From Cytophagaceae bacterium (GTDB lineage: Bacteria > Bacteroidota > Bacteroidia > Cytophagales > Spirosomataceae), in the NCBI GenBank assembly GCA_947450865.1, contig CANFWR010000011.1, positions 1-35,661 of the forward strand: DNA of 35,661 bases. Direction: 5' to 3'. Each line of letters starts with the position of its first letter. Position 1 is the first letter of the stretch. The notes under the pieces are model-generated. The model had not been told where the DNA came from. It worked only from the letters and a program-made list of their open reading frames with translations, and made no database searches. Positions 1-34,726 of the stretch are shown piece by piece. Made by a program: the position numbers and the translations under genes.

Positions 1-1578
1 CTTGAATTACCTAAAGATGGCCTAGCCGGGCTTAAAGAGAATTTCTCTTCCGATGCTGTATCGGGATTTATTGTGTTTTTATTAGCATTGCCTTTAAGTT
101 TAGGCATCGCTAAAGCTTCGGATTTCCCCCCAATTATGGGCTTATTGACAGCCATTGTGGGCGGTATTGTCGTAAGTATTTTTAGTGGATCTCGATTAAC
201 GATCAAAGGGCCTGCAGCCGGATTAATTGTCATTGTAGCTGGTGCAGTAGCTGAATTTGGAAAAGGAGATAATGTATTAGGCTGGCATTTAGCACTAGGT
301 GCTATGGTCGTTGCCGGTTTAGTCCAAATACTTTTCGGAGTTTTCAAACTGGGGAAATTGATGGATTTCTTCCCACTTTCTGCCGTTCACGGTATGTTAG
401 CTGCGATTGGATTGATCATTATCGGAAAACAAATTCCGGTGTTCTTGCATACTTCAGTTTCGACGAAAGGAAAAGGACCTTTGGAATTATTCGCTTCTAT
501 TCCAGAATTTGTGGCGCATTTAGACCCAAAAGCCACCATCATCGGTGTAGTAAGTTTAGCCATCATGATGGGCTGGCCAGCGATTAAGAATCCGATTATC
601 AAGAAAATTCCTGCGCCATTAGTCGTTTTAGCCTTAGCTATTCCAGCAGAGCTTTATATGAACTTCCAAACGATTGCACCGGATGCATTAGTGAAAATTG
701 GAAGCTTGGTAGATAATATTCAATTGAATGCTTCTTTTGAAGGATTAAGTGAATCAGGAATCTTCATCAAATTTGTCATCATGTTTGCTTTAGTGGGTTC
801 ATTAGAATCCCTATTGACTGTGAAAGCAATGGACATGTTAGATCCTTACAAACGCAAATCAGATGCAAATAAGGATTTGATTGCAACGGGTATAGGTAAC
901 ACAGTCGTGGCATTCTTAGGTGGTTTACCGATGATTTCAGAGGTAGCGCGTTCTTCTGCGAATATTGCGAATGGAGCCAAAACACGTTGGGCAAACTTCT
1001 TCCACGGTTTCTTCATCCTTTTATTCGTGTTAATCGCGGCAAAATTGATTGAGTTAATTCCTAATACAGCTTTAGCAGCCATGTTAATCACGGTAGGTAT
1101 CAAATTAACGCACCCGAAAGAGTTTATTCACACCTTGGAAAAAGGGAAGGAGCAATTATTAATCTTCTTAGTAACGATCATCTTTACCTTAGTAGAGGAT
1201 TTATTAGTGGGTATTGCTGCCGGAATCTTGACTGAAATTTTAGTGAATTTATTCAACGGAAAACCGTTAAAGGCTATTTTTAGCGCACCTACAGAAGTTT
1301 CCTTCACGGATGATGCTTATTTAATCGAAATCTCTGATGCGGCTGTGTTTACAAATTACCTAGGCATCAAGCGTAAATTAGAATCTATTCCATCTGGTTT
1401 TAAGGTGACAATTGACCTTTCCAAAACACATCTTGTCGATCACTCGGTGATGGAGAATTTCGAACACTTTAAGCACGATTACGAAAGTGATGGGGGTTCA
1501 GTAACACTTGTTGGACTTGAAAATCACAAAGCACTATCAAGTCATCAGGCTGCGGCGCGCAAGCGAATCAAGGCTTAA
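1..1578 (+). CDS. SulP family inorganic anion transporter with STAS domain (5' end outside window)
   Basis: This is an inner-membrane anion transporter of the SulP/SLC26 family (sulfate, bicarbonate or similar; the substrate cannot be read from sequence). The frame is open from base 1 and already codes for the conserved N-terminal stretch (DGLAGLKENFSSDAVSGF), so the true start lies upstream. A GTG at 73 is internal. Many hydrophobic segments follow, including PLSLGIAKASDFPP and the glycine-rich SRLTIKGPAAGL typical of SulP. The last roughly 90 residues, from about VSFTDDAYLIEI, form a STAS domain with the IDLSKTHLVDHS strand-helix signature, which is regulatory in this family. A strong terminator follows. 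Family assignment is sure; the substrate is not. Confidence 0.93.
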   Translation, partial: LELPKDGLAGLKENFSSDAVSGFIVFLLALPLSLGIAKASDFPPIMGLLTAIVGGIVVSIFSGSRLTIKGPAAGLIVIVAGAVAEFGKGDNVLGWHLALGAMVVAGLVQILFGVFKLGKLMDFFPLSAVHGMLAAIGLIIIGKQIPVFLHTSVSTKGKGPLELFASIPEFVAHLDPKATIIGVVSLAIMMGWPAIKNPIIKKIPAPLVVLALAIPAELYMNFQTIAPDALVKIGSLVDNIQLNASFEGLSESGIFIKFVIMFALVGSLESLLTVKAMDMLDPYKRKSDANKDLIATGIGNTVVAFLGGLPMISEVARSSANIANGAKTRWANFFHGFFILLFVLIAAKLIELIPNTALAAMLITVGIKLTHPKEFIHTLEKGKEQLLIFLVTIIFTLVEDLLVGIAAGILTEILVNLFNGKPLKAIFSAPTEVSFTDDAYLIEISDAAVFTNYLGIKRKLESIPSGFKVTIDLSKTHLVDHSVMENFEHFKHDYESDGGSVTLVGLENHKALSSHQAAARKRIKA

Positions 1579-22573: not shown

Positions 22574-22585
22574 GTGATCCCGCTG
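22574..22585. repeat. Short tRNA-Lys 3'-end remnant (possible old att site)
   Basis: GTGATCCCGCTG is identical to 12 bases of the 19-bp repeat at 23687 and 34651; it diverges afterwards (AGGCG instead of GGATT). As with the other two copies, a strong hairpin sits just to its left. It may mark the left end of an older insertion spanning 22586-23686. The rest of the 446-bp gap 22358-22803 shows only AT-rich DNA with no gene I can support. Confidence 0.5.
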
Positions 22586-22803
22586 AGGCGTTTTAATTTA
22601 AATTAACTGGCACATAATCAAGGATTTATAGCTTATTACGGTTTACTCAACCCAAAGTCCTACCTCAAAGACTTTTTTTGATCATCATTTTACTCGTAAA
22701 GCCTTCTACTACAGTTAACTAAATGACCCGATAAAATTCAAAAGTGTCTTTATAACTATTTTAAATATTTTTATAAATTTGAATTGTTATCTAAAATACA
22801 TCT

Positions 22804-23568
22804 ATGATTAAAAGCATTTATGTTTTAGTCTGGGTATTATTTTCTATGCAGGTTTTTGCCCAAACTGGAATTGGTACTTCTACACCTGATCCTTCTGCAA
22901 AGCTACACGTGGCATCAACTGATAAAGGATTACTGATACCAAGAATGACTTCGGGTCAAAGAACAGCTATATCAAATCCAGCGAATGGTTTAATGGTTTA
23001 TCAAACCGATGGTATTACCGGTTTTTATGTGAATACAGGTAGTTCAGGAACTCCATCTTGGATGAGAGTGAATACAGATTGGGCCAAGTCTGGCAATGAT
23101 ATTAGTTTTTCTGGAGGCAATGTCTCTATAACTGGGAATCAAACTGTGAGTGGGAATGTGAATGCTACTAATTTTATAGGAAGTGGAAGTCAGTTAACCG
23201 ATGTGGCTATTAAAACAACGGGCACGTGGAATGTAGCAACAGGAGAATCTGATTATAGTTTTACTGTAACATCAGGCAGTTATGTTATGTGGGTTTTTGC
23301 AAATATACCCAATGGAATTATTGCTTGGAATGCTACAGTAACTGTGACTAACTCAAATGTTCCAGTTGTTGGAAGTCACTATGCCTGGGTTTACAATGGA
23401 GGAGGAACTCCAATTGAATTTATAAGCATACCAAATCAAATTACTGGAACAAATAATTCTATAGTAAGAAGTACAATTTCAGGTAGTACTTCAAATGTTT
23501 TTACATTTAAAATTAAGAATACTTCTGGGTCTTCCCAGACTGTTTACTATGGGTATATTAGGTTGTAA
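22804..23568 (+). CDS. Secreted tail-fibre-like beta-repeat protein, function unknown
   Basis: A 254-aa exported protein with a signal peptide at 1-19 ([19 protein letters not shown]). The N-terminal part [21 protein letters not shown], followed by [15 protein letters not shown] and NGLMVYQTD, is the module common in Bacteroidota secreted proteins and phage tail-fibre-like proteins. Next come [19 protein letters not shown]-type strands and a Ser/Thr/Asn-rich beta C-terminal domain ending [12 protein letters not shown]. It is probably a surface or extracellular fibre; the function is unknown. It is the only gene between the att-like remnant at 22574 and the repeat at 23687, so it may be cargo of an earlier insertion. 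It contains GATC sites, unlike the neighbouring element. Confidence 0.7.
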
Positions 23569-23630
23569 TTTACTTTTTGTTGAGCCAAACATTAAATACA
23601 ATAGGGGACAAAACCGTGCCTAAAAGGCAT

Positions 23631-23666
23631 AAAAAAACTCCGAAATCGTTAGAAATCGGAGTCTTT
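23631..23666. terminator. Hairpin terminator left of the left att repeat
   Basis: ACTCCGA (23637-23643) pairs with TCGGAGT (23656-23662), with an A-run on the left and CTTT on the right, so it could stop transcription both ways. It lies 63 bp after the fibre-like gene and 24 bp before the 19-bp repeat. It is probably the hairpin that ended the tRNA-Lys transcript before the element inserted. Confidence 0.75.
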
Positions 23667-23686
23667 AGTGCTATTTACTAGCTAAG

Positions 23687-23705
23687 AAGTGATCCCGCTG
23701 GGATT
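23687..23705. repeat. Left att site: 19-bp direct repeat of the tRNA-Lys 3' end
   Basis: AAGTGATCCCGCTGGGATT is identical to 34651-34669, where it covers the last 16 bases of the tRNA-Lys gene (minus strand) plus 3 bases beyond. After it the tRNA sequence stops matching, so this copy is the detached fragment expected after integration into a tRNA 3' end. Confidence 0.88.
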
Positions 23706-23811
23706 AATTCTTTTCTCGTAATGTCTTGAAAATGTCCTCAAATGACCATAATATAACGATTAACCTATTATACATCCCAAATCAGGAGACATAGTAAGAC
23801 ATTTAATCCAA

Positions 23812-24465
23812 TCAACTTGCTAATGATTCTGCTAAAGACCTATTATGATTTGAGGATAATCCAAGTTTCTTAATTTTGGTAATTGTATTGGGATGTAACC
23901 CCACTATTTTAGAGACTTCTGAATTTTTATAACCTTTTTTCAGAAAACCCAAAGCTGCCTTGTTTTTTGATTTAGACAGAAAATCAAGGACGTCTTCATT
24001 ACTTCCTATTTTTCTTCCTAAGTATACATTTTTCTTCAACTTGGCTAATTCAATCCCTTCTCTTTGAGCGTTTTTTATCAAATTTCGATTCATTTCAGCA
24101 ATTACTGACATAAACGCAATACACATTTTTGATATGGGGTTCTCTGTACCATCTGTATTTAAAGTTGAAAGACCTTGTTCTATGAAATGGACAGGAATTT
24201 TTCTCTCAACCATAAAATGAAGAAAATCAACAATTCCCTTTAAATCTCTACCGCATCTGTCGATTTGCCAGAAAGATACAGAACCTACTAAATCAAGTGT
24301 TATAAGTTTTAATAGTTCTTTCCCCCCCGGCCTTTCAAATAAAGCAACAGCACCCGAAATTCTATCCTCAATCACTTTGTCATATTGGTCTTCTTGTACT
24401 CTTTGTCTTTCAGGATTTTGCTCAAATGAGGAAACCCTCACATAAAGTATATTCAATTTTTTCAT
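23812..24465 (-). CDS. Serine recombinase (resolvase/invertase family)
   Basis: A small serine recombinase of 217 aa. I chose the ATG at 24465, which begins MKKLNILYVRVSSFEQ, the standard family start; the open frame extends 32 codons upstream without family likeness. Ser12 in YVRVS is the predicted nucleophile with Arg10; FERPGG and WQIDRCGRDLKGIVDFL (Asp69, Arg70, Arg73) complete the active site. The C-terminus (KKGYKNSEVSKIVGLHPNT and onward) is a helix-turn-helix DNA-binding end. It sits 107 bp inside the left end of the element, opposite the tyrosine integrase. In a plasmid-like element a dimer-resolving role is likely; DNA inversion is the alternative. Confidence 0.9.
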   Translation of the reverse strand: MKKLNILYVRVSSFEQNPERQRVQEDQYDKVIEDRISGAVALFERPGGKELLKLITLDLVGSVSFWQIDRCGRDLKGIVDFLHFMVERKIPVHFIEQGLSTLNTDGTENPISKMCIAFMSVIAEMNRNLIKNAQREGIELAKLKKNVYLGRKIGSNEDVLDFLSKSKNKAALGFLKKGYKNSEVSKIVGLHPNTITKIKKLGLSSNHNRSLAESLAS

Positions 24466-24593
24466 AAAATTAGACTTATTAGTATTTGAACCTAAAATTA
24501 TGAAGAAAGTGCCTAAATGCCGCCTAAACAAAGGTTTTTGGTAATTTTTTAGTCTCCTCAATTAAAGTATAATCTAAAAATGTGAGAAAAGAA

Positions 24594-24617
24594 AAATTCA
24601 CCCGATCGGGTGAATTT
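24594..24617 (-). terminator. Perfect 24-bp palindrome, terminator of the minus-strand block
   Basis: Twelve-base perfect arms meet at a central GATC with no spacer; in RNA they give a long stem. On the minus strand it is followed by a T-rich tract (TTTTTCTTTTC), so it reads as an intrinsic terminator below the 24678-25110 genes. Its centre is the only GATC found by eye between the two att repeats. Confidence 0.75.
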
Positions 24618-24677
24618 GTTTGGCACAGATTATAAAGGGAGAATTATAAATCTTATATGGGAATTAAAATATTTGAA

Positions 24678-24968
24678 CTAATTCTCTCCTAAATAAGGAT
24701 ATTCAAGTTCACTATCAATTTGAAGATATTGTGAGTCAATATGATATTGGTCTAAAAAATATGACAGGAATTGAGAAAGGTGAGTTATTTCACCACTAAA
24801 TCCAATAACATTACTATCTACATTATTAATATCAAGTAATTTTTTAAAATGTCTTTCAAGGTACATTACAGAAGGTTTTGTTCTGTCTAAATCATTTAAT
24901 TTTAAATCCTTTTCAATTTTGAAAAGTACACCTTCTTTATCACTAACCTTTTTAAATGTATTTCCCAT
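24678..24968 (-). CDS. Small acidic protein, function unknown
   Basis: A 96-aa protein if it starts at the ATG at 24968 (MGNTFKKVSDKEG); a TTG three codons earlier is also possible. It contains no motif I recognise. The N-terminal half is charged and helical (KIEKDLKLNDLDRTKPSVMYLERHFKKLL); the C-terminal half is acidic with aromatic residues (QFLSYFLDQYHIDSQYLQID). Its start lies inside the end of the 52-aa gene upstream (17-base overlap), so the two are translationally coupled. They lie downstream of the restriction-modification genes and before a strong terminator. An antidote, immunity or regulatory role is possible but has no sequence support. Confidence 0.6.
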   Translation of the reverse strand: MGNTFKKVSDKEGVLFKIEKDLKLNDLDRTKPSVMYLERHFKKLLDINNVDSNVIGFSGEITHLSQFLSYFLDQYHIDSQYLQIDSELEYPYLGEN

Positions 24969-25110
24969 TTGATTCAAGTATTTGAGTAATATTATTTTTA
25001 GTCTTATCTATTATCATTTTTAACTGAGCCTCGGTAACAAGAATTTTTACAGGTCTTTTAGGTTGGGGTTTCTCCTCTTTTTGTTGTTTTATAATTGACA
25101 TTAATCTCAT
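24952..25110 (-). CDS. Very small basic protein, function unknown
   Basis: A 52-aa open frame starting MRLMSIIKQQKEEKPQPKR, rich in Lys, Gln and Pro, with KILVTEAQLKMIIDKTKNN in the second half. The VTEAQLKMII segment resembles a short helix-forming motif seen in many small mobile-element proteins. I know no function. An inverted repeat just upstream (25117-25137) is shared with the upstream region of the Rep-like gene. Its stop overlaps the 96-aa gene. The case for it being real rests on this coupling and on the upstream site. Confidence 0.55.
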   Translation of the reverse strand: MRLMSIIKQQKEEKPQPKRPVKILVTEAQLKMIIDKTKNNITQILESNGKYI

Positions 25111-25390
25111 TTTATTAAGTGTTTACTATAAATACTAAAAAAATGACCTTAGTTCACGAAAGGAAGGGTTTCCCACGAAATATATTTCAACAAATTATAT
25201 TAGATTCAGAAATAAAAAACTCCCGATTTCGATGTTGAAAACTGAAATTTTATTGGGATTTTGAAGATGTGGAAAGTTGAAAATGGGTTTTTTATCCTAT
25301 CAATTTGTTACGATAGAAATGGTTCAAAAAAGTACCGATTTTGATACTAAAAACCCAATAAAAGTCTTGATTTAAAGAAATTAAAATATA
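25111..25390. other. Non-coding gap between the restriction gene and the small-gene pair
   Basis: No gene is supported in these 280 bases. There are loose A/T-rich inverted stretches, such as CCCGATTTC near 25222 facing a later GAAAT, and a pair around GGGTTTTTT and AAAACCC between 25287 and 25362. They could stop transcription coming from the restriction genes, but none is a clean terminator. The part next to 25110 holds the operator-like site listed separately. Confidence 0.4.
25117..25137 (-). promoter_or_regulatory. Operator-like inverted repeat before the 52-aa gene
   Basis: AAGTGTTTA (25117-25125) faces TAAATACTA (25129-25137) across 3 bases. The same left half-site and a nearly identical right half-site lie upstream of the Rep-like gene at 29152-29175. 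This suggests one repressor reading both minus-strand promoters. Confidence 0.45.
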
Positions 25391-26776
25391 CTAATCTTTT
25401 GAATAAATATTATCTCTTATAAAGGAGTTATTAAGCCAAAAACAATGTTTTGTGTACTCAGAAAGGCCGGTGACTTTGTCTTTAATTGGTAGGGGATATG
25501 TATCTTTAGAATTTAAAGCGTGTGGTCTTACGTGTGATACTTTGCTAAATTTTTTAGAAGGAAAGTTCGTAAATCTCTTACCTTCATAAATTCTATTTAC
25601 AATATTACCTTGGGTAACGATTTCTTTAGTAAACTCCCATACTCTTTGAGATTCATTTATTTCTTCAAAGGACATATTCCAAAACTTTACCTTATCCAAA
25701 ATAAGTGAATTGTCTTGGGTGTATCGGTAAAAAACAAATAAGAACTTACTTTCTACTACATCTTTAAAATCTGATTCTTCCCAATCTTGATTTATAATTT
25801 CTGAGAAACTGAAATTTGGAAAAGAGACATCTTCTTTAGGTAACCCATTAGACTTCAATCTTATAGTTTTAACTATTATACCAGCCTTATCGAATTCTTC
25901 TATTTCTTGATTCAACTCTATACCTAAAATATGTTTGGTAACATTGGAAAAGAAATTCTTAGAGTTTGAGTTAAATGATTTTTCACTTAGCCCTTGAACA
26001 ATATCTTCTATCGATTTATTTAGATAAGGGTTGAATTTTTCTACCACAATTTGTTCAAAAGACTTGTTACTGAGTTCTAAAGGACTTGATATTAACTTAC
26101 CATAATCACTTTTATAATTAGATAGACTCGCAATAATATGGTTTAAATAACCCTGTTTGAACGAGAATGCCCTTTGTTTTGCTCTAATTTGGCTAAATGG
26201 TTGTGGTCTAAGATTACCTCCTTTTGCCCCTTTAGTACAAGCACCTAAATAAATCGTATCTCCTTCACTTATTTCGTGTGCCTTTCCATTTTTTATTTTT
26301 TCACAAATAGATTCCCAATCCCTCTTGATTATCTCTAAATCTACCGCTGGTATTTTCCAATCCCCTACGATTTTAACTATATAATCAATTACCTCAACAT
26401 CAATTTGATAAAGGTAAAATATCATTAAAATGTGATAATTCTTCTTAAGGAATGTGCTCTCTTCAAATTTTTCTGAATGAATATCTAAATAATTGATGAT
26501 GTTTAGAACCAAACGTTCCTTAGACCTAAATTTATTTTTATTAATGATTTTTAAAGGAGAGGTTTTAAGTTCCATTCCTACTTTATCAAAATCTGCCACT
26601 GATTTTGAATTCGGTTCGTATCCATAAAAATACTTTTCTAATAACTGACCAAAGTTTCCTTTTCCTTTGTAGGTATTACTAAGTAAATCTTCTCCACAAA
26701 CATCTCTTAATGATTTGTCAATTAGATTTTTAGAATATTCTAAAATGGATTTTAAATCATTAGATTGGTAATTCAT
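25391..26776 (-). CDS. Type II restriction endonuclease, Sau3AI/MutH family
   Basis: A 461-aa restriction enzyme of the Sau3AI family, whose N-terminal half is related to mismatch nuclease MutH. The catalytic region reads KGKGNFGQLLEKYFYGYEP, then ADFDKVGMELKTSPL: Asp62, Glu69 and Lys71 have exactly the spacing of MutH Asp70, Glu77 and Lys79, and Glu47 stands where MutH has Glu56. The second half is the degenerate MutH-like repeat that lets Sau3AI bind as a pseudo-dimer; the length fits Sau3AI (about 490 aa). It overlaps the methyltransferase stop by one base (TAATG), so the pair is one operon. Predicted site is GATC or a relative, supported by the near absence of GATC in the element. Confidence 0.9.
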   Translation of the reverse strand: MNYQSNDLKSILEYSKNLIDKSLRDVCGEDLLSNTYKGKGNFGQLLEKYFYGYEPNSKSVADFDKVGMELKTSPLKIINKNKFRSKERLVLNIINYLDIHSEKFEESTFLKKNYHILMIFYLYQIDVEVIDYIVKIVGDWKIPAVDLEIIKRDWESICEKIKNGKAHEISEGDTIYLGACTKGAKGGNLRPQPFSQIRAKQRAFSFKQGYLNHIIASLSNYKSDYGKLISSPLELSNKSFEQIVVEKFNPYLNKSIEDIVQGLSEKSFNSNSKNFFSNVTKHILGIELNQEIEEFDKAGIIVKTIRLKSNGLPKEDVSFPNFSFSEIINQDWEESDFKDVVESKFLFVFYRYTQDNSLILDKVKFWNMSFEEINESQRVWEFTKEIVTQGNIVNRIYEGKRFTNFPSKKFSKVSHVRPHALNSKDTYPLPIKDKVTGLSEYTKHCFWLNNSFIRDNIYSKD

Positions 26777-28065
26777 TAGCTCAGAATTTTCTCCGTTAAT
26801 TGTTTAGAGATACGTTCAATTACCCCAACTACAAGAGCATTACCCATAAAAAACGCTCTTTTTGTATCGTTCACACCTTCCAAATATGTGTGGTTATCAG
26901 GAAACATATTAAGTCTTTCTAATTCAATAGGGGTTAATCTTCTCTGTCCTTTTTTAGTATTAATGACGTGTTTGAATCTTGAAGGGGATTTTCCACCTTC
27001 TCCTGTTATAATAGTTCTTGATGGTTTATCTAAAGGGTCAGGAAAAATCATTCCCCCTTCACTGTAGTGATATTCAAATCCGTCACTATTTTTTCTAATT
27101 TCTTTTTTTGCTCCCTTTAAGTACTCCCACTTTTCAATTGAATCCTTATCAATATAATATTCGTCACCCACTTTATCTTTTTGAATAATGTCACCAAGTA
27201 AAGTATAATCCCCATCATAATTTGACTTTGTTTTGATAGAATATACTTTTCCTTTGACCATTATACCAGCATTTTGAAAACCAGCAAACTTCATATCCTT
27301 GTTGAAATTATTACTAATGTCTACAATGTCGTCTGACAATTTAACAACAGATAGATTATCTGATTTCTCTTTTAAAGCAACAGGTAGCGATTCTGCTAAA
27401 ACACCTGTATTAAGTATGTATTCTAATGGTTCATCTTTAACAAGTTCTTTGTATAATGTAGTACCTTTCTTATAGGCTAAGATGAAAATTCGTTTTCTTC
27501 TCTGAGGAAACCCATATTCAGCCGCATTAACAATTCTCCATTCTACAACATAATCTAATTCATCTAAACTTTTAAGGATTATGGCAAAGTCTCTTCCACG
27601 TTGTTTTGAAGGTGAAATCAATAATCTATCAACATTTTCAAGAAATAAGTATTTGGGAGGATTCTTCTTATCTGTGAGAATTTTATGTATTGACCACCAC
27701 AATACCCCCTTTTTACCAATTAAACCTTTACTATTTTTCAGAGTAGTAGCCACAGAGTAGTCTTGACAAGGGAACCCACCCACCAGCAAGTCGTGGTCAG
27801 GAATTAAGTCTGTGTCCAATGTTGTTATGTCAATGTTTGTATGTCCGTCTTTTCCCCATCTGTTTTCATAAACCATCGAGGCGTGTTGAACCTTTGTAGA
27901 TGGTTCCCATTGATTACTGAATACAACTTCATATTTAGAATTCAAGTCCTCTTTATAACCTGATGTAGAACTCTTTCCATTCCAACCTTCAAGTCCAAGG
28001 CGAAATCCCCCAACACCCCCAAATAATTCGCAGGTTCTGATTTTGTTAATCTTCGTTTTTGACAT
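26776..28065 (-). CDS. DNA (cytosine-5) methyltransferase of the restriction-modification pair
   Basis: A C5-cytosine methyltransferase that protects the site cut by the adjacent nuclease. I start it at the ATG at 28065 (MSKTKINKIRTCELFGGVGG), giving 429 aa; a TTG two codons earlier is weaker. Motifs run in order: I (ELFGGVGGFRLGLEG), IV (GGFPCQDYS, catalytic Cys100), VI (LENVDRLL, 142-149), VIII (FPQRRKRIFIL), a target-recognition region through the middle, IX (RRLTPIELERLNMFPD) and X (FMGNALVVGVIERI). All are intact. It is the promoter-proximal gene of the pair, so methylation is expressed first. Confidence 0.93.
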   Translation of the reverse strand: MSKTKINKIRTCELFGGVGGFRLGLEGWNGKSSTSGYKEDLNSKYEVVFSNQWEPSTKVQHASMVYENRWGKDGHTNIDITTLDTDLIPDHDLLVGGFPCQDYSVATTLKNSKGLIGKKGVLWWSIHKILTDKKNPPKYLFLENVDRLLISPSKQRGRDFAIILKSLDELDYVVEWRIVNAAEYGFPQRRKRIFILAYKKGTTLYKELVKDEPLEYILNTGVLAESLPVALKEKSDNLSVVKLSDDIVDISNNFNKDMKFAGFQNAGIMVKGKVYSIKTKSNYDGDYTLLGDIIQKDKVGDEYYIDKDSIEKWEYLKGAKKEIRKNSDGFEYHYSEGGMIFPDPLDKPSRTIITGEGGKSPSRFKHVINTKKGQRRLTPIELERLNMFPDNHTYLEGVNDTKRAFFMGNALVVGVIERISKQLTEKILS

Positions 28066-28228
28066 ATTCAAAATTAATAGAATTTCAGTTGTTTTCTAAG
28101 TATTTTATCTTGATTCAAAACAATTATCATTTCGTTTATAAACCTCAAAATTAAGGTTAAAATGGGATTTGTGTGGTTCTTTAAACAAACATTGATTTAA
28201 GTGTCTTAAATCGAAGGAATGGTCGGAA

Positions 28229-29125
28229 TTACGACCTTTCTTGTTCACCTTGAATGGGTACACACAAACTAAATGAATTTTTATTTATGTTATATTCCTT
28301 TAGAATGTAATTTGCTCCCCAAAGACTCTTATCATACATAGCCAAATGATATTCTAAACGATTAAACTTTTTTCTATTCATTGACATTAGAAAGAATACC
28401 TTAATTGTTTCTAATTTGATATGCTCGGAATCCATATTCAAGAACATATGACAATGTCTGTGTTGACTTTGATACTTTGAAAGTCTTAAATCACCACTTT
28501 CTTTAATTGAATATTCTGTGGAATATGCTAATCTCAAAGACTTATTATTGGTATGATTTGATAGTAAATCAATGAATTTCATCAGTGTGTAACTCCATTC
28601 GTCTTCTGTCATTAATTTCTTTGTATGTATGGTGATGAAAAAATCCCAATTTTGACTTTTTAATTCACTAAGAAGTAATTGTTTATCCTTATTTCTGACA
28701 TTTATATTCGAATTATTGGCAAAGAACTTCTCTTTATCTTCCTTGGATAATAGACGAGAGGGGAGAGTATATGGTAGTTTAGCTCCTTTTATTCTTGTTT
28801 TTCTATAAGGATGAAATGTCTCCTTATCATTGTTTTTATGTTTCCAATAAGTCTTCAAAAATGATTCTTTTATAAATAATTTACCATCAGAATAGAAGTA
28901 ATCTGTTTCAAATTGAGCTTTTTCAGTTAAATATTTTCTTATGGTGGGGTCTGTTGTATCATATTGACCGAGTATTGTCGGTAATGAAATATAAAGTTCA
29001 TTTGAGATTGTAGCTCCTGTGGATATGTATTCGTATTTACCATCTTGATTAATCGTTAATACTTGGTGGTATTTTGGGTATTGTATTTTATTCATATTAT
29101 TAATTATAAAGAGAGTTTTGGACAT
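28229..29125 (-). CDS. HUH-endonuclease-like replication initiator (Rep)
   Basis: A 298-aa protein with the three-motif layout of HUH replication initiators. The first strand is NWDFFITIHT (159-168). The pattern E-Y then H-x-H is in AYSTEYSIKESG (200-211) followed by QHRHCHMFLNM (221-231), where His224-Cys-His226 would bind the metal. The catalytic tyrosine motif would be ANYILKEY (271-278; Tyr273, Lys276). Such enzymes nick one strand and start rolling-circle replication or transfer. The ATG at 29125 has an AAAGGA site upstream; an ATG ten codons later is also possible. The gene faces the palindrome-rich gap at 29126-29465, a natural place for its origin. Assignment rests on motifs only. Confidence 0.6.
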   Translation of the reverse strand: MSKTLFIINNMNKIQYPKYHQVLTINQDGKYEYISTGATISNELYISLPTILGQYDTTDPTIRKYLTEKAQFETDYFYSDGKLFIKESFLKTYWKHKNNDKETFHPYRKTRIKGAKLPYTLPSRLLSKEDKEKFFANNSNINVRNKDKQLLLSELKSQNWDFFITIHTKKLMTEDEWSYTLMKFIDLLSNHTNNKSLRLAYSTEYSIKESGDLRLSKYQSQHRHCHMFLNMDSEHIKLETIKVFFLMSMNRKKFNRLEYHLAMYDKSLWGANYILKEYNINKNSFSLCVPIQGEQERS

Positions 29126-29151
29126 AGGAAATCCTTTAGGAGAATTCCATC

Positions 29152-29175
29152 AAGTGTTTATTGAAATAAATACTT
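29152..29175 (-). promoter_or_regulatory. Operator-like inverted repeat before the Rep-like gene
   Basis: AAGTGTTTA (29152-29160) faces TAAATACTT (29167-29175), 8 of 9 bases complementary. It matches the site at 25117-25137 except for a 6-base instead of a 3-base spacer. It lies 27 bp upstream of the Rep-like start. Confidence 0.45.
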
Positions 29176-29416
29176 TAGTATCAACCAAAATCCTCTTTTT
29201 CGTCTAAAAAACTGAAAAAATTTTCAGTATGTTATTTTAGTATGTACTAAAGGGAACTATTTAAAAACCAGCAGTTACTAACTGTAAATCTCTAACCCTA
29301 TCATTTTCAAACTCTTACAGGCAGGAGGGGAGGCAGGATTCCTCTTAATAGATTACGACCTGCCCTCATTAGTGACGTGGGGGGTAAAAAATATTTTGAA
29401 ATAATGTCCAAAAATT

Positions 29417-29446
29417 TTGGTCATTAAAATAATGCCCGTATCTTTG
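29417..29446 (+). promoter_or_regulatory. Bacteroidota promoter for the plus-strand block
   Basis: TTG at 29417-29419 and the exact -7 box TATCTTTG at 29439-29446, with 19 bases between them, in the range for the Bacteroidota sigma-A promoter. An imperfect inverted repeat, GGTCATT-aaaat-AATGCCC (29419-29437), fills the spacer and is a likely operator. AAAGGA follows before the ATG at 29466. Confidence 0.7.
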
Positions 29447-29465
29447 TGTCATAAAGGAACAAAAA

Positions 29466-30056
29466 ATGGTTATTTCAACAACATTGTTAACGGCTGGTTT
29501 AGTAAAGAAAGGATTATTATTACTCCTTCTTAATCCAAACTTAGTACCTGAAAGAAAAAAATATGAAGATTGGTTGGACAATGATGGTTTCAAACTTGAC
29601 CATTCTAAAGACTCTACAAGGTCACATCTCTTTAAGGAATTAGATAGACTAAAAAATAAGTACAGAATTGATTGGGATGGAGAGTGGACATATGAAAATG
29701 GAATTTCTAAAATGGTTTTACCTAAGTCAGAAGATGGGAGAGAGTTATCGCCGGGAGAAATTAAAATGGCATTAGAGTCATTAGAACTTCAAATAGAAAA
29801 AGTTCGATTGATGATAGAACACGAGTACTCAGTTATCAGAAACCACCACAAACCGACAGGGGTATATTATATTGTTGTGAGAAGTTATTGGTTGAACCGT
29901 AATGGGAATAAATTTAAGAAGTTTAATAAAAACATTGGTGCGGAAGAGAAGGTACTTGTGAATGGTGAAGTTCCAAAGTTTAAAATAGACGAAGCAAAAC
30001 AAGAAATTGATTCAATGATGTGGAATCATTATAAGGATGAGTATGGAATAAAGTAA
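29466..30056 (+). CDS. Conserved-looking 196-aa protein, function unknown
   Basis: A 196-aa protein that starts with a hydrophobic segment (VISTTLLTAGLVKKGLLLLLL) and continues as a charged, mostly helical soluble domain. It contains RSHLFKELDRLKNKYRIDWDGEW, then ELSPGEIKMALESLELQIEKVRLMIEHEY (a probable coiled helix), and a beta part VYYIVVRSYWLNRNGNKFKKF. The N-terminus may be a membrane anchor. I do not recognise the family. It has the clearest promoter in the element, with an operator-like repeat inside it, so it is probably expressed early and under control. Two 29-bp direct repeats separate it from the ParB-like gene. Confidence 0.7.
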   Translation: MVISTTLLTAGLVKKGLLLLLLNPNLVPERKKYEDWLDNDGFKLDHSKDSTRSHLFKELDRLKNKYRIDWDGEWTYENGISKMVLPKSEDGRELSPGEIKMALESLELQIEKVRLMIEHEYSVIRNHHKPTGVYYIVVRSYWLNRNGNKFKKFNKNIGAEEKVLVNGEVPKFKIDEAKQEIDSMMWNHYKDEYGIK

Positions 30057-30057
30057 T

Positions 30058-30126
30058 TTTTTTTATCTAAAAATAGTGCCCAAAATGATTGGCATTATTT
30101 TTTTATCTAAAAATAGTGCCCAAAAT
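30058..30126. repeat. Two 29-bp direct repeats with operator-like half-sites
   Basis: Identical 29-bp copies lie at 30058-30086 and 30098-30126, starting T-rich and ending ATAGTGCCCAAAAT. The first copy's AATAGTGCC (30072-30080) also pairs, 8 of 9, with GGCATTATT at 30091-30099. AATARTGCCC recurs inside the promoter spacer at 29428-29437. They lie 26 bp before the ParB-like gene and look like binding sites for a regulator or centromere-like iterons. Confidence 0.65.
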
Positions 30127-30151
30127 ATTTTATCATAATTAAATTAAAAGA

Positions 30152-31909
30152 ATGAAAAAAGAATTCAAACAAAAACACTTAAGAGTTTCAATTGATTTGA
30201 TTGATGTTGATTCAACATTAGAAAACGATTACAATCCGATTTCTAAAGGTTTTTTTAGTGAATCAATGTCAAGAACAGGAGGGGAATCTGTCTATCCGCT
30301 GGTAATATGTAAAAATCAAAATGATAGATACTTTTTGTTATCGGGGAGAGGGAGATTGGACGAGTATATTGAACGTGGTGTCGAAACAGTAAATGTTATT
30401 CTTATTGAAGGGGAATTGACTCAAGAGGATAGAACAAATTTGATTTATGATTTAAACAAACAAAGATTAAAAGACGGCAAAACACTTTATAATGAGTTTA
30501 AACACTCCCTGATTATCTACCCACAAAAAAAAGGTGTTAGAGGTGATAGATATAAGTTGTTGGGGGCAGAATTAGATAAACCGAGGAGTGAAGTTAAAGA
30601 GCTAGTGATTCTTCACAATTTCTTCAATGGTGATGGAGATATTGTAATGGAAAAGATTTTTGATAAGAAATTATCACGTAATCAAGCTCAAAAATTGAAG
30701 AAGGTTGTTGATGAAAATTTATTAAAGTTCAATAGTTCTGAAACATACGAAAAGTTGTCCGATGGAAGTTTTGATTTTGACAGAATGGGATTTGCCATTT
30801 CAATTTTAGACCCTGAAAATGAGGATGAATTCAAGTTGATTAAAGGTTATTTAGATAGTACATTCAGTTTTAAAGAGTTTACAGATTTATCTAAGAAATA
30901 TTCCACATTTATTGAAACCGAAGATAGTCACAACAAAAACAAAGTCTTTTCCCCCATTTTAACGGATAAATTTCAAACCGAGAATACATTCATCATTAAT
31001 GATAATAATAAGATTGTTGAATTGTCAAATAACCCATTCAATAAATTAATTCAGACTATTATTTCATCATTCGAATATGGGGATAGACGAATGAATTCTG
31101 ATTCAGAAGATAGAAAAGAATTTTATAAAAAAGATGGGGAAAATGCTGCTATTGAAATGGCAGAATTATTCGAAAGTAAGATACCTTATATGGACAAAAG
31201 TGGTTCCGTTTATGTGATAATGGATGATTTTAACATAGATGGTGTAATGGCTTGTTTCCCTGAATTTTTTGTAACTGAGATGGTAAAAAGAAAATTTCAT
31301 CTTGCTTCTCGTTACAAATGGGAAAAACCTAATAGTGTTCCTATTAATTATAAATCAAAAAGAATTGGAAATGGATTTGAAATGGTTTACCGATTCGTAA
31401 TCGACAAAGTAAACTTTTATTCGAACAAGGATATTTTCATTGAAACTGAACAAGGTTTAAAGGTATCCAAAGGGTGTACTAACCATTCAAAATATGGAAC
31501 AAATAGAGGAGGTCTATATTTACAAGGTGGACTTAAAAAACCTAAAAATACTTTGAATTGGGATGTTGTAAATGATACTATAAAACATAACGTAGCCAAT
31601 CCTGACAATTTCTTTCGTCAAGCGGACGAACGCTACCATACCAGCCAATATCCACCTGAAATATGTGCTTTTTTTATCTTAGAATCTTCTCGTGAAGGGG
31701 ATATCTGTTGTGACTTATTCAACGGAGTAGGTAATACAATGACCGCCTCATTGTTGACTAACAGAAAATATATTGGTGTTGAAATGGAGAAAGATTACTA
31801 CGAACAAACTTGTAGAAGAACGAAGTATTATGAGAATTTGAAGGCTGGGGAAATCATCTACCCACTTTACGAAGAACCTGTAAACGAAATGGAATATGAA
31901 TATTGTTAA
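30152..31909 (+). CDS. ParB-like domain fused to a DNA-methyltransferase fold lacking the catalytic PP motif
   Basis: A 585-aa two-domain protein. The N-terminus resembles a ParB/Srx-type domain: VSIDLIDVDSTLENDYNPI, then YPLVICKNQNDRYFLLSGRGRLDEYIERG (the GxGR core at 65-72) and a helical part. The C-terminal half has the layout of a beta-class N4/N6 methyltransferase. Motif I is at its end (DLFNGVGNTMTASLLTNRKYIGVE, 521-544), preceded by YPPEICAFFILESSREGD. The catalytic (S/D)PP(Y/F) motif should sit near 304-310, but there the text is ISSFEYG; PP is gone. It may bind DNA and SAM without methylating. It heads an operon with the 111-aa and ART-like genes and overlaps the former by 14 bases. 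Confidence 0.7.
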   Translation: MKKEFKQKHLRVSIDLIDVDSTLENDYNPISKGFFSESMSRTGGESVYPLVICKNQNDRYFLLSGRGRLDEYIERGVETVNVILIEGELTQEDRTNLIYDLNKQRLKDGKTLYNEFKHSLIIYPQKKGVRGDRYKLLGAELDKPRSEVKELVILHNFFNGDGDIVMEKIFDKKLSRNQAQKLKKVVDENLLKFNSSETYEKLSDGSFDFDRMGFAISILDPENEDEFKLIKGYLDSTFSFKEFTDLSKKYSTFIETEDSHNKNKVFSPILTDKFQTENTFIINDNNKIVELSNNPFNKLIQTIISSFEYGDRRMNSDSEDRKEFYKKDGENAAIEMAELFESKIPYMDKSGSVYVIMDDFNIDGVMACFPEFFVTEMVKRKFHLASRYKWEKPNSVPINYKSKRIGNGFEMVYRFVIDKVNFYSNKDIFIETEQGLKVSKGCTNHSKYGTNRGGLYLQGGLKKPKNTLNWDVVNDTIKHNVANPDNFFRQADERYHTSQYPPEICAFFILESSREGDICCDLFNGVGNTMTASLLTNRKYIGVEMEKDYYEQTCRRTKYYENLKAGEIIYPLYEEPVNEMEYEYC

Positions 31910-32231
31910 CAAAATATCTGAATTAGTGACTGAAATGGGTGGTGGGATGATGAGACCTAAGAATAAAGACGACACTGAATTAATTATCAGTTTCACATCA
32001 ATGGGAAAATCAATTGTAGATAGAATTCAATTGAAAATTTGTCACTCTGAAAATGAATTTGGTGTGGTACTTAAATCCTACATAACTCATAATAAGTTCG
32101 TGAGTATCAAAGTGTGGACTTACTTACTTATTGAGGTCTTGGAAAGAGAATTTCAAGTTGATGTAATCCTTAAAGGTTCGATTAGTAGGTACTATTTTTT
32201 AGGTCAAAAAGAATTTCAAGATAAAAATTAA
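31896..32231 (+). CDS. 111-aa protein, function unknown
   Basis: A 111-aa protein whose start lies 14 bases inside the end of the ParB/methyltransferase-fold gene, so the two are coupled. Its sequence is mixed alpha/beta: NKISELVTEMGGGMMRPKNK, then strands (ELIISFTSMG, DRIQLKICHS, FGVVLKSYITH) and a helix-strand end (WTYLLIEVLEREFQVDVIL). There is no signal peptide, membrane segment or motif I know. It ends 5 bases before the ART-like gene. Its constant place between the two suggests a partner or inhibitor role, which is inference. Confidence 0.65.
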   Translation: MNIVNKISELVTEMGGGMMRPKNKDDTELIISFTSMGKSIVDRIQLKICHSENEFGVVLKSYITHNKFVSIKVWTYLLIEVLEREFQVDVILKGSISRYYFLGQKEFQDKN

Positions 32232-32236
32232 ATAAA

Positions 32237-32956
32237 ATGGAACACGTTCAAAATTTCAAAAAAGAAAAATTGTGTGAGGAGTTACGAGAACATTTATTAG
32301 TAAGAGACACACATATGGTAATTAAAAACAAGTTTGTAAATCAGTTGTATCGTTCTAATCCTGATAAAAAAACTACAATTAATGGTTTAATGAATTATTC
32401 ATATCAATATAAGTTGAATTCTTACAATGAATATTTCAAGGAAGGGGATTATGATTCTGTTGTTTTCTTGGTTATTGAAAGACCTTGGAGACTTCAATGG
32501 ATTGACGAGAATAAGGAAATGATTATTAATGAGAAGGGAGCAAAATATTATTACGAATTACTTGGTGAGGCATATAATGATACAGAAAACGCTCACGAGA
32601 ATAAGGAGAAGATTATTGAGCTATTCCATTTTGGGAAATCTCCTAAACTTATGATGAATGAGGATGAACAATCTGAATTTGAGACACTACCACAGAAATT
32701 TAAAGTTTGGAGAGGTGTTGGTGTTAATGATGAATTTGAAGAGGATTTGATTGGTTCATCTTGGACTACAGACTATAATCGTGCCGTATTTTTTGCCGAA
32801 AGAAATGTAAGAGATGAAGACGGGTATCCTTTGATTTTTGGACTTGAAATCGACAAAGAAGATGTTTTATCTCTTATTACACGAAGAAATGAAAACGAAG
32901 TAATCCTTGATTACTCAAAAATTAAAGAGGACAATTTAGAACACATTTACATATAA
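32237..32956 (+). CDS. ADP-ribosyltransferase-like protein (R-S-ExE pattern)
   Basis: A 239-aa protein. The C-terminal half shows the R-S-E layout of NAD-dependent mono-ADP-ribosyltransferases. VWRGVG (157-162) holds the NAD-binding Arg159. GSSWTTDYNRAVFFAER (173-189) holds the S-x-T strand and following helix. The ExE pair is Glu219-x-Glu221 in RRNENEVIL (216-224), as in arginine-modifying members. In between is LIFGLEIDKEDVLSLI. The N-terminal half is helical and not recognised. The target could be a host protein, a phage protein or DNA. It lies 5 bases after the 111-aa gene and 12 bp before Xis. The fold call rests on motif order and spacing only. Confidence 0.55.
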   Translation: MEHVQNFKKEKLCEELREHLLVRDTHMVIKNKFVNQLYRSNPDKKTTINGLMNYSYQYKLNSYNEYFKEGDYDSVVFLVIERPWRLQWIDENKEMIINEKGAKYYYELLGEAYNDTENAHENKEKIIELFHFGKSPKLMMNEDEQSEFETLPQKFKVWRGVGVNDEFEEDLIGSSWTTDYNRAVFFAERNVRDEDGYPLIFGLEIDKEDVLSLITRRNENEVILDYSKIKEDNLEHIYI

Positions 32957-32968
32957 AATAGAAACATA

Positions 32969-33247
32969 ATGAGATACGAGAATAATTACCCATTTGGGGG
33001 ATTACAAACTGATTTACTTAAAGAAGTGATTCGTGAAGTTGTAAGAGATGAGTTTAAGTTAATTGAACATAAACTTACTCCACCCTCAAAACAACTGACA
33101 CGACTTAAAGCAGCCAAAATTGCCCAAGTCTCCCCAAAAACCATTTCAAGATGGGTTGACAAAGGGTATGTTACAAACCTTGGGAAAGGCAGAAAAATCC
33201 TTGTTGAAGAGAGTGATTTGTTAAATTTTAATAACCATAAAAACTAA
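32969..33247 (+). CDS. Excisionase-like HTH (MerR/HTH_17) protein
   Basis: A 92-aa protein with a C-terminal winged helix-turn-helix of the excisionase type: LTRLKAAKIAQVSPKTISRW, then VDKGYVTNLGKGRKILVEESDLLNF (about 44-87). The N-terminus is a charged helix (LLKEVIREVVRDEFKLIEHKL). Proteins of this size and fold next to a Bacteroidota tyrosine integrase bend att DNA and drive excision. The integrase start is 4 bases after its stop. Confidence 0.85.
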   Translation: MRYENNYPFGGLQTDLLKEVIREVVRDEFKLIEHKLTPPSKQLTRLKAAKIAQVSPKTISRWVDKGYVTNLGKGRKILVEESDLLNFNNHKN

Positions 33248-33251
33248 AAAA

Positions 33252-34562
33252 ATGGCAGTATCCTTTTACATCATTAAAAACAAAAGTAATAGTAGTTCAA
33301 TTTATTGTTCCATTAACTATCAAGGAATCAATAGACTTGTTTATCAATTACCTAACTCAAAAATTAACATTAATAGTTGGGGGAAAGGTGGACTCAAAAA
33401 AGGTAAAGGACTTTTAAATGATTCAGTCTTAAAGAAACTTAAAGAGAGAATGGAAACATTTAGTAAGGATTGTGATACATTTTATCTTGAGTTTAATAAT
33501 ATTAATCGGCAAAATCCTACCAAAGAGGATTTCTTATCATTTTTCAAGTCAATGAAAGAACCTCAAGACTACTTTACAAATCAAGTGGTTTTTGACTTAT
33601 TACCATACTTTAAACAACTCATTGAGGAAAGAAAGACAGGGCTAATTTTAAAAAGAGGTGGCACAAGATATAGTCAAGGTACTATTGCTGGTTATGAAAC
33701 AACCTTGGAATTACTTAAAGAGTACATTCAATTCAAAAAAATAAAATTCACTAATCTGTCTACCATTACAAAGGAGTTTATTTTAGGATTCGAACACTAT
33801 CTGACCATTTCAAAAAATTATAAGTTGAATTACGTGTCAAATAGAAAGAAAGTCTTAAAGTCATTTCTTGAGATTTTCTATCAAGAAGGTCTGATTTCAT
33901 TTAATCCATTTAAAAGATTCAAAATTCCCGTTCAATGGGAAAGAGGTGTCGGAATTGCTTTGGATGAGGATGAAATGGATGAAATGTCAAATTTAGAACT
34001 TTTAGAATTTCCACATTTAGATAAAGTTAGAGACCAATTTATGGTTTTAGCTTGGACAGGTTTGAGAGTAAGTGATTATAATAATTACAAAGAGATTAGA
34101 AAGAATGGGAATATTATTTCACTTTTCAACCAAAAGACAAAAAAACAGGTTGACCTTCCTTTATTTCCAAAACTTGAACAAGTACTCAATAAGTACAATT
34201 GGATACTACCTAAGTTGATTAGTGAACAAAAAATGAGAATTCATTTGAAAACTATTGGAAAAATGGTTTCAGGACTAAATAGAGACATACAAATCCAATA
34301 CACAAGAAGTGGTATCACAACGACAGAATTCGTCAAACGTTACAAACATATGAGCCTACACGTAGGTAGAAGAACAATGTGTTCATATCTGGCTAAAATT
34401 GGTGTTCCGTTGTCTGAAATTCTTATTGTCTCAGGACATTCAAGTATCCGAGACCTTGAAATTTATATTCGTCCAAATCATTCTGATGTATTAAATAGTA
34501 TGATTGAAAAGGTCTTAAAACGTGAAGTTTCAAGAGAAGAAGAATTAGTCAAAATTCATTAA
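33252..34562 (+). CDS. Tyrosine recombinase / integrase of the element
   Basis: A 436-aa site-specific tyrosine recombinase of the Bacteroidota integrase type. An N-terminal arm-binding part is followed by a SAM-like core-binding domain (about 110-215: LLPYFKQLIEERK, FEHYLTISKNYKLNYVSNRKK). The catalytic domain has Arg272 in TGLRVSDY, a Lys near 295-298 in NQKTKK, His370 and Arg373 in LHVGRRT, His396 in SGHSS and nucleophile Tyr405 in LEIYIRP. All five are present, so it should be active. It lies directly inside the tRNA-Lys att site, the usual place for the integrase of a tRNA-targeting element, and is coupled to Xis. Confidence 0.95.
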   Translation: MAVSFYIIKNKSNSSSIYCSINYQGINRLVYQLPNSKININSWGKGGLKKGKGLLNDSVLKKLKERMETFSKDCDTFYLEFNNINRQNPTKEDFLSFFKSMKEPQDYFTNQVVFDLLPYFKQLIEERKTGLILKRGGTRYSQGTIAGYETTLELLKEYIQFKKIKFTNLSTITKEFILGFEHYLTISKNYKLNYVSNRKKVLKSFLEIFYQEGLISFNPFKRFKIPVQWERGVGIALDEDEMDEMSNLELLEFPHLDKVRDQFMVLAWTGLRVSDYNNYKEIRKNGNIISLFNQKTKKQVDLPLFPKLEQVLNKYNWILPKLISEQKMRIHLKTIGKMVSGLNRDIQIQYTRSGITTTEFVKRYKHMSLHVGRRTMCSYLAKIGVPLSEILIVSGHSSIRDLEIYIRPNHSDVLNSMIEKVLKREVSREEELVKIH

Positions 34563-34615
34563 ATCAAAAATGATTTTTGCTAAAGGAATTGCTAATAGGG
34601 AATCACTAAAACAAC

Positions 34616-34640
34616 AAAACCCACGATAAACGTGGGTTTT
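34616..34640. terminator. Bidirectional terminator between integrase and tRNA-Lys
   Basis: A perfect 10-bp stem (AAAACCCACG with CGTGGGTTTT) around a 5-nt loop, ending in T on both strands. It can stop the integrase operon on one strand and the tRNA-Lys transcript on the other. It is element DNA, so integration replaces the native tRNA terminator. Confidence 0.85.
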
Positions 34641-34650
34641 ATATTGTTTT

Positions 34651-34669
34651 AAGTGATCCCGCTGGGATT
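34651..34669. repeat. Right att site: 19-bp repeat at the tRNA-Lys 3' end
   Basis: Identical to 23687-23705. This copy lies in the intact tRNA gene, covering acceptor-stem and T-arm bases, so the tRNA stays functional after integration. Confidence 0.88.
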
Positions 34670-34726
34670 CGAACCCAGGACCCATACATTAAAAGTGTAT
34701 TGCTCTACCAACTGAGCTACGGAATC
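34654..34726 (-). tRNA. tRNA-Lys (anticodon TTT)
   Basis: A complete 73-nt cloverleaf on the minus strand: acceptor GATTCCG with CGGGATC, D arm GCTC with GAGC, anticodon stem ATACA with TGTAT around loop CTTTTAA (anticodon TTT), and T arm CTGGG with CCCAG around TTCGAAT. The discriminator base is A. No CCA is encoded. Its 3' end is the integration site of the element. Confidence 0.96.

Follow-up and report, generated by a model that had tools for sequence, protein, structure and literature searches.

SIRV1 Rep (ORF119, PDB 2x3g; L028, 5596-5952, minus strand), the HUH Rep of a rudivirus, is a 119-aa stand-alone domain from an archaeal virus for which an HUH fold with nicking and joining activities has been reported (PMC6668415), as have the fold and the catalytic tyrosine (PMC4187194). 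Rep-Arvir (RepSNJ2), likewise archaeal, is encoded in an integrated element, joins a winged-helix part to an RCR endonuclease in one protein, is unrecognisable by sequence and has a hairpin origin near its gene; its description relates it to Rep_trans and sets it apart from the HUH superfamily (PMC13107129). In streptococci, integrase-bearing elements without a T4SS use RCR-type initiators of the MobT/Rep_trans, Rep_2, PHA00330 and Viral_Rep families as relaxases (PMC5357655), and MobT of ICEBs1 acts as both relaxase and initiator (PMC5357655; PMC5704250). According to a 2017 review, no study had until then addressed how IMEs replicate once excised (PMC5704250); papers on SGI1 replication have been published since.

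Here we analyse a 35,661-nt stretch of a Cytophagaceae genome (GCA_947450865.1, contig CANFWR010000011.1; hereafter the window), in which a preliminary description had proposed an HUH-endonuclease-like Rep inside an integrated element. The protein (hereafter Rep) resembles SIRV1 Rep in the order of its motifs (FITITT, E, HYH and YMLK in the latter) and, by description only, Rep-Arvir in its integrated setting, its fused winged-helix-like part and its resistance to recognition by sequence. It differs from the streptococcal relaxases in lacking Pfam Rep_trans, Rep_2 and Viral_Rep matches, in having no recognised coupling protein beside it and in its Bacteroidetes host. The reading that we favour, at a probability of roughly 70%, is that Rep is an HUH-type nicking initiator by which an 11-kb element, integrated in a tRNA-Lys gene, replicates once excised as a circle.

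That the gene lies in an integrated element was borne out, and the element could be bounded by a 12-nt repeat at 23689-23700 and 34653-34664, the second copy lying within the 3′ end of the tRNA-Lys gene (Table 1). A scan of a genome collection with Rep as a single sequence returned only L002, a twin element on a 289-kb contig of another Bacteroidetes MAG (genome G912), which is 99.82% identical to the window over 11,039 nt, starting at the att site at 23689 and stopping where the tRNA gene ends, at 34726. Two of the 20 differences fall in the tRNA gene and the other 18 in the element, and G912 has exactly two copies of the 12-mer, 10,965 bases apart as against 10,964 in the window. Nothing else in the 20.9-kb L002 locus aligned with the window (blastn at 1e-5), and single flanking genes, with orthology assumed, gave best matches of 69% identity for a second-host protein in the window's genome and of 47% and 38%, in two pieces, for a window-flank protein in the second host. 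Because the element is so much more alike than these flanking proteins, it has moved recently between distantly related hosts. A third copy of GTGATCCCGCTG, at 22574, bounds a 1.1-kb piece (22574-23688) whose single 254-aa ORF (22804-23568) has no Pfam match at E ≤ 0.1; the piece may have been left behind by an earlier tandem integration.

Table 1. Features of the element and of its integration site, in window coordinates.
Feature	Coordinates	Strand	Basis or remark
Integrative element	23689..34652		10,964 bp between att copies; GTGATCCCGCTG at 23689 and 34653
att left	23687..23705	+	19 nt, AAGTGATCCCGCTGGGATT; 15 nt of these repeated in second host
Serine resolvase	23812..24561	-	PF00239, 8.8e-21; 81-82% identical to L042, L044 and L046
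99-aa gene, no assigned function, adjoins resolvase	24678..24977	-	ORF list
Sau3AI-type restriction endonuclease (cargo)	25391..26776	-	NF040973, 3.6e-151
C5-cytosine methyltransferase (cargo)	26776..28071	-	PF00145, 5.5e-63
Putative HUH-type replication initiator (rep)	28229..29095	-	288 aa from likely start at 29095; 298 aa from outer ATG at 29125
Conserved non-coding block	29096..29215	-	29131-29141 reads TCCTAAAGGAT on the minus strand; candidate origin or operator
Partner gene, 196 aa, element-family marker	29466..30056	+	Alignments; divergent from rep
DNA N6/N4 methyltransferase, 585 aa	30152..31909	+	PF01555, 2.7e-24
111-aa gene	31896..32231	+	ORF list; no Pfam family
Phage-type protein, no assigned function	32237..32956	+	phrog_4776, 9e-34
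Helix-turn-helix protein, excisionase-like	32969..33247	+	PF12728, 5.7e-06, just under cut-off
Tyrosine integrase, adjoins tRNA	33252..34562	+	PF13102, PF00589; phrog_1
att right	34651..34669	+	Overlaps tRNA-Lys 3′ end; 19 nt identical to left
tRNA-Lys(ttt), integration target	34653..34726	-	ARAGORN; Rfam RF00005

The element thus has integration- and excision-type genes of its own (integrase and helix-turn-helix protein) together with a defined pair of att sites. Its helix-turn-helix protein is 40% identical to the protein preceding the integrase of L047, one of the sister loci described below, and its integrase matches those of L047 (31%) and L040 (23%). When all 11 ORFs of the element were run against Pfam, none matched a T4SS, coupling-protein, capsid or packaging family, and PHROGs, run on nine of the 11, recognised no gene redirecting helper phage packaging. 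No phage structural genes were recognised in the element that encodes the phrog_4776-matching protein.

This inventory bears on whether the element is a phage satellite, with Rep as its replication initiator and a helper phage packaging the replicated DNA, which we consider unlikely. Its size fits a phage satellite, and the integrase, the excisionase-like gene, the phage-type protein and the restriction cargo would all suit such a life. Against this, no packaging, capsid or terminase gene was recognised, the helix-turn-helix protein matches several helix-turn-helix families, of which the terminase small subunits (phrog_57, 0.00018) are just one, and Rep has no match in 50,697 phage records or in IMG/VR.

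The Rep-like ORF, read as 298 aa, occupies 28229-29125 on the minus strand, opposite 26 stops on the plus strand. Translation of rep probably starts at the inner ATG at 29095 (288 aa) instead of the outer one at 29125, since an extra base at 29101 in the twin element disrupts the first ten codons of the longer version and an independent homologue starts at a methionine matching the inner ATG. In the 288-aa numbering used here, the residues first listed as His224, His226 and Tyr273 become H214, H216 and Y263. The motifs originally quoted are all present and in the order given (WDFFITIHT, E before HRHCHMFL, then NYILKEY). The N-terminal part (about residues 30-90) is predicted to form a helix-helix-hairpin-helix arrangement, helix-turn-helix-like and winged-helix-like, and is followed by a C-terminal HUH-like domain (about 140-280) with F153-T155-I156-T158, E194, H214xH216 and Y263xxK266.

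The C-terminal domains of Rep and its homologue share 52 of 145 aligned residues, among them D151, F153, T155, I156, T158, E194, H212, H214, H216, Y263 and K266, so that motif I, the glutamate, HxHxH and YxxK are all kept in a protein only 35% identical. Motif II, two histidines flanking a hydrophobic residue, reads H214-C-H216 in Rep and H-I-H in the homologue; motif III, defined as YxxK with a catalytic tyrosine (PMC6668415), lies downstream as Y263-I-L-K266 and is kept in the homologue, with Y263 as a putative catalytic residue. The combination of motif I, HxH and YxxK, a pattern picked only after both proteins had been seen, occurred in 170 of 200,000 shuffles of Rep, in 61 of 200,000 shuffles of the homologue and in one of the 27 frames in the window that are 150 codons or longer.

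The claim that Rep belongs to no familiar family held up in Pfam, PHROGs and NCBIfam, none of which gave a convincing match. In particular, the Pfam Rep_trans/MobT, Rep_1, Rep_2, Viral_Rep, Y1_Tnp and relaxase families were without a match at E ≤ 1 for the whole protein and at E ≤ 10 for the HUH-like domain or the homologue, in searches where HMMER's filters discard most rows above about 0.1. SIRV1 Rep matches the rudivirus Rep profile PF21578 (1.2e-67) and phrog_7769, whereas Rep matches neither. As to the profile comparison with Rep families proposed at the outset, hhalign of Rep against SIRV1 Rep aligned 44 columns in the motif-I half with a probability of 0.8 on a scale of 0-100, which is no real support. 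A PHROG annotated as ‘transposase’ (phrog_2577) matched the part from HUH to tyrosine at E 0.022 and found no match when searched in the window's own genome; among PDB sequences there was no convincing match, the one row standing at E 0.16.

Homologues proved scarce. One true independent relative of Rep, in genome G123 (34-35% identity), was found in a sample of 200 genomes and again among 222 genomes of the same family; samples of 390 genomes of the order, 395 of the class and 395 of the phylum, which overlap, yielded no credible match besides the window's own. With tblastn, Rep matched nothing in 72,556 plasmid records or in the phage records mentioned above, the partner protein nothing in plasmids, and the homologue nothing in phages, with two rows at E = 5 in Klebsiella plasmids; searches of IMG/VR with Rep and with the partner gave no relative. 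With this single independent relative across genome, plasmid, phage and IMG/VR searches, the Rep lineage looks rare, and what is said here of its conservation refers to a family of two independent members.

Several weak profile rows were rejected as chance. They include three from the class search (G692, G779 and G842), of which the ORF in G779 looks unrelated by eye, and one from the family search (G897). In a further family-search row (G136) stops interrupt the frame, and a hydrolase-like ORF runs through it on the opposite strand; three rows from the phylum search (G1223, G573 and G1071) contain internal stops. A DNA pattern for motif III found four loci in IMG/VR, all judged unrelated by eye.

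AlphaFold models were built for full-length Rep and for the homologue's domain alone, each resting on two sequences, and reached a pLDDT of 52 (mean) and 69, respectively. In VIA-align 2 the full-length model matched 2x3g best (Z 8.0, rmsd 2.8 Å), with 103 of 116 residues aligned at 16% identity (model 140..272 against 1..116) and the next row at Z 6.3. As models without a clear match typically have a best Z of 7 to 8, this score taken alone is suggestive only. By hand count the alignment puts Y263 within about one residue of Y108, the tyrosine of the SIRV1 YMLK motif. Foldseek found nothing in the PDB for the full-length model at E ≤ 0.001, and for the N-terminal part the single structural row listed was a weak one to Dachshund (1l8r, Z 5.6).

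For the homologue's domain, ribosomal S6-like folds lead the VIA matches (top Z 6.0) and 2x3g is absent from the 50 matches listed. AAV Rep and IS200/ISDra2-type transposases make up nine of these 50, with Z values (5.0-5.6) that tie with those of the other rows. Among these structural rows, IS200/IS605 TnpA proteins (Y1 HUH transposases) stand at Z 5.0-5.4; the window's element differs from theirs in having a tyrosine integrase and in sitting in a tRNA gene. Against BFVD, Foldseek gave the domain no match at E ≤ 0.001, and the 50 rows listed are mostly nameless, the named ones including two parvovirus-type NS1 proteins, a microvirus initiator, a putative Rep and unrelated proteins. The motif-III tyrosine (NYILK) sits in coil or strand in both models. 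HUH enzymes usually carry this tyrosine in a helix.

In the structure prediction first proposed as a check, the full-length model thus has an HUH Rep as its top match, and the model of the homologue's domain has S6-like folds in the lead, tied with HUH rows. The HUH Rep reading itself gains from the conserved motifs, the 2x3g match and the replication-type genes of the sister loci, and loses from the low or middling confidence of the models and the position of the tyrosine; an HUH fold is no more than likely. We think it quite unlikely that the motifs are coincidental, in which case Rep would be some other nucleic-acid enzyme, or a regulator of transcription, whose ferredoxin-like domain includes a strand rich in histidine. 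Model confidence, the tied ferredoxin-like matches, the tyrosine outside a helix and the lack of family matches would all agree with it. Yet E194, H214, H216, Y263 and K266 are all kept at 36% identity, which independent residues would achieve with a chance of 0.36^5, about 0.6%; SIRV1 Rep is the top structural match, and the gene occupies a replication slot.

Conservation extends beyond the coding sequence. The 120 nt upstream of rep aligned with those upstream of the homologue gene with a local score of 70, against a mean of 27.8 and a maximum of 54 in 2000 dinucleotide shuffles. Set against the homologue's 120 nt, six further regions upstream of element genes scored 21 to 41. The core TCCTAAAGGAT ends 35 nt (window) and 45 nt (homologue) before the start codon and is followed by TATGTCCAAAA in the window and by TATTGCCCAAAA in the homologue. 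Our claim of conservation rests on the 120-nt alignment score; the length of the exact common 11-mer was rejected as evidence, because 197 of 500 shuffles reached at least 11. Single-stranded DNA folding of the two intergenic regions was unremarkable (z −1.45 and −1.78). The block is a candidate for either an origin or an operator.

The partner gene led to sister elements. Its profile matched in 11 of the 222 same-family genomes at E ≤ 0.01: the window's own, G123, seven others of the window's genus and two weak rows (G052 and G061) with internal stops and E about 0.001. The seven same-genus genomes contribute ten loci (L039-L048), which we compared with L009 and the window; L002 was left out as a twin, and because L044/L046 and L047/L048 are close pairs, the independent cases number fewer than twelve. 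In 11 of the 12 loci the partner is preceded directly upstream by a gene encoding 236 aa or more, L045 having none in this slot. L040 and L043 each have one ORF of 65-105 aa between the two, and L009 has a doubtful one of 70 aa.

The slot is filled by HUH-like Rep in the window and L009 and by other proteins elsewhere. L039, L042 and L043 have helix-turn-helix proteins that match PHROG replication-initiation or helicase-loader families (best E 6.8e-13, 4.1e-8 and 1.6e-11), and L041 a protein matching a PHROG DNA primase/helicase family (1.1e-8). The slot proteins of L041 and L044 also carry Pfam BT4734-like_N, to which L046 is assigned by resemblance to L044; BT4734-like proteins are counted among archaeo-eukaryotic primase families (PMC5862659). 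Four of the seven sister slot proteins scanned with PHROGs thus have a replication annotation. The other three (L040, L044 and L047) matched no replication family there: the 828-aa protein of L040 matches a PHROG of unassigned function, that of L044 is the one with the primase-type domain in Pfam, and that of L047 matches nothing in PHROGs. The proteins of 603-605 aa at L047 (8349-10160) and L048 (2812-4629), the latter grouped by resemblance, are candidate unclassified initiators.

Other parts of the elements are shared less uniformly. A ParB-like/methyltransferase fusion lookalike, represented in the window by the methyltransferase, follows the partner in eight of the 12 loci, a count judged from the first 220-330 residues with Pfam run on the window, L039 and L044. 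Neither the window's methyltransferase nor its 99-aa protein matched any sister-locus ORF (blastp at 1e-3, phmmer at E ≤ 1), so both were dropped as a shared backbone, and the methyltransferase has only its Pfam family and position in common with the sisters. The tRNA genes beside recombinases are Lys in the window, Asn in L009, L039 and L041, and Arg in L044 and L046; an Asp tRNA gene lies about 3 kb off in L047 and may be unrelated. Since an exact 14-nt att search near tRNA genes found no repeats within the stretches fetched for L009, L039, L041, L044, L046 and L047, these elements are undelimited. In the L009 element there is a type I restriction system, along with a serine recombinase of the large kind. 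This sister element (L008, 8473-18268) has HsdM and HsdR for its restriction system, and with them a PADLOC candidate defence gene (PDC-S02, 3.7e-168) and unassigned genes in between.

The slot also bears on whether Rep is primarily relaxase-like, nicking an oriT near 29096-29215 so that a helper conjugation system moves the strand; the element would then be an IME with a non-canonical relaxase. To this we assign a low probability. It would account for an element whose 11 ORFs show no T4SS or coupling family in Pfam and which nevertheless moved recently between distant hosts, and 118 streptococcal IMEs carry RCR-type relaxases (PMC5357655). On the other hand, no coupling-protein gene was recognised in the element, PHROGs places four of the seven sister slot genes with initiators or primases and not with nickases, and Bacteroidetes IMEs are described in PMC5704250 as using MobP. 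A relaxase role would, by analogy, be compatible with an initiator role, the same review offering precedents for RCR initiators used both in maintaining the excised circle and in transfer.

A replication initiator remains the best reading of Rep, because several sister slots hold initiators or primases, the motifs are conserved and a conserved block lies upstream of the gene. The integrase and the excisionase-like protein would cut the element out, and the helix-turn-helix-like part of Rep would bind a site just upstream of rep. With a metal held by H214 and H216 together with E194, Y263 would nick one strand and remain attached to its 5′ end, leaving a free 3′ end to prime rolling-circle copying. 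The serine resolvase, whose presence fits a circle that forms multimers, would resolve these before the integrase put the circle back. The element would on this account replicate as a single strand, and might also be transferred as one, if the Rep nick served a helper conjugation system.

RCR-type proteins in integrative elements are already known. What appears to be new is the unclassified Rep lineage and, within the open-access papers searched, a family of Bacteroidetes elements with swappable replication modules; no description of this architecture was found there by title or the start of the abstract. We see an even chance that Rep represents an HUH lineage that is both new and very rare, with a helix-turn-helix part of its own, and that it is one of several interchangeable replication modules in an undescribed family of tRNA-integrated Bacteroidetes elements. 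The sister elements have in common the partner gene, often a methyltransferase in the same place and, in three of them, a closely similar resolvase, together with unrelated initiators or primases, and the HUH version could double as a relaxase. A compact element, seen in two nearly identical copies in distant hosts, that has both a candidate initiator and conserved sequence upstream of it, and whose sisters differ at the replication slot, offers a natural experiment on module exchange and on whether an HUH initiator also enables transfer. As the elements of the window and of L009 carry restriction systems, the question bears on the spread of phage defences.

Palindromic TAATGNCCAAAA boxes lie upstream of the partner gene (29402-29426) and, as part of a direct repeat of 29 nt, of the methyltransferase gene (30058-30126). 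None of the ten sister loci has a regular-expression match to the palindrome in the 250 nt preceding its partner gene. In the window, TAATGNCCAAAA with at most one mismatch has eight matches against 1.9 expected, four of them in these two intervals, and the boxes resemble operators of an element regulon.
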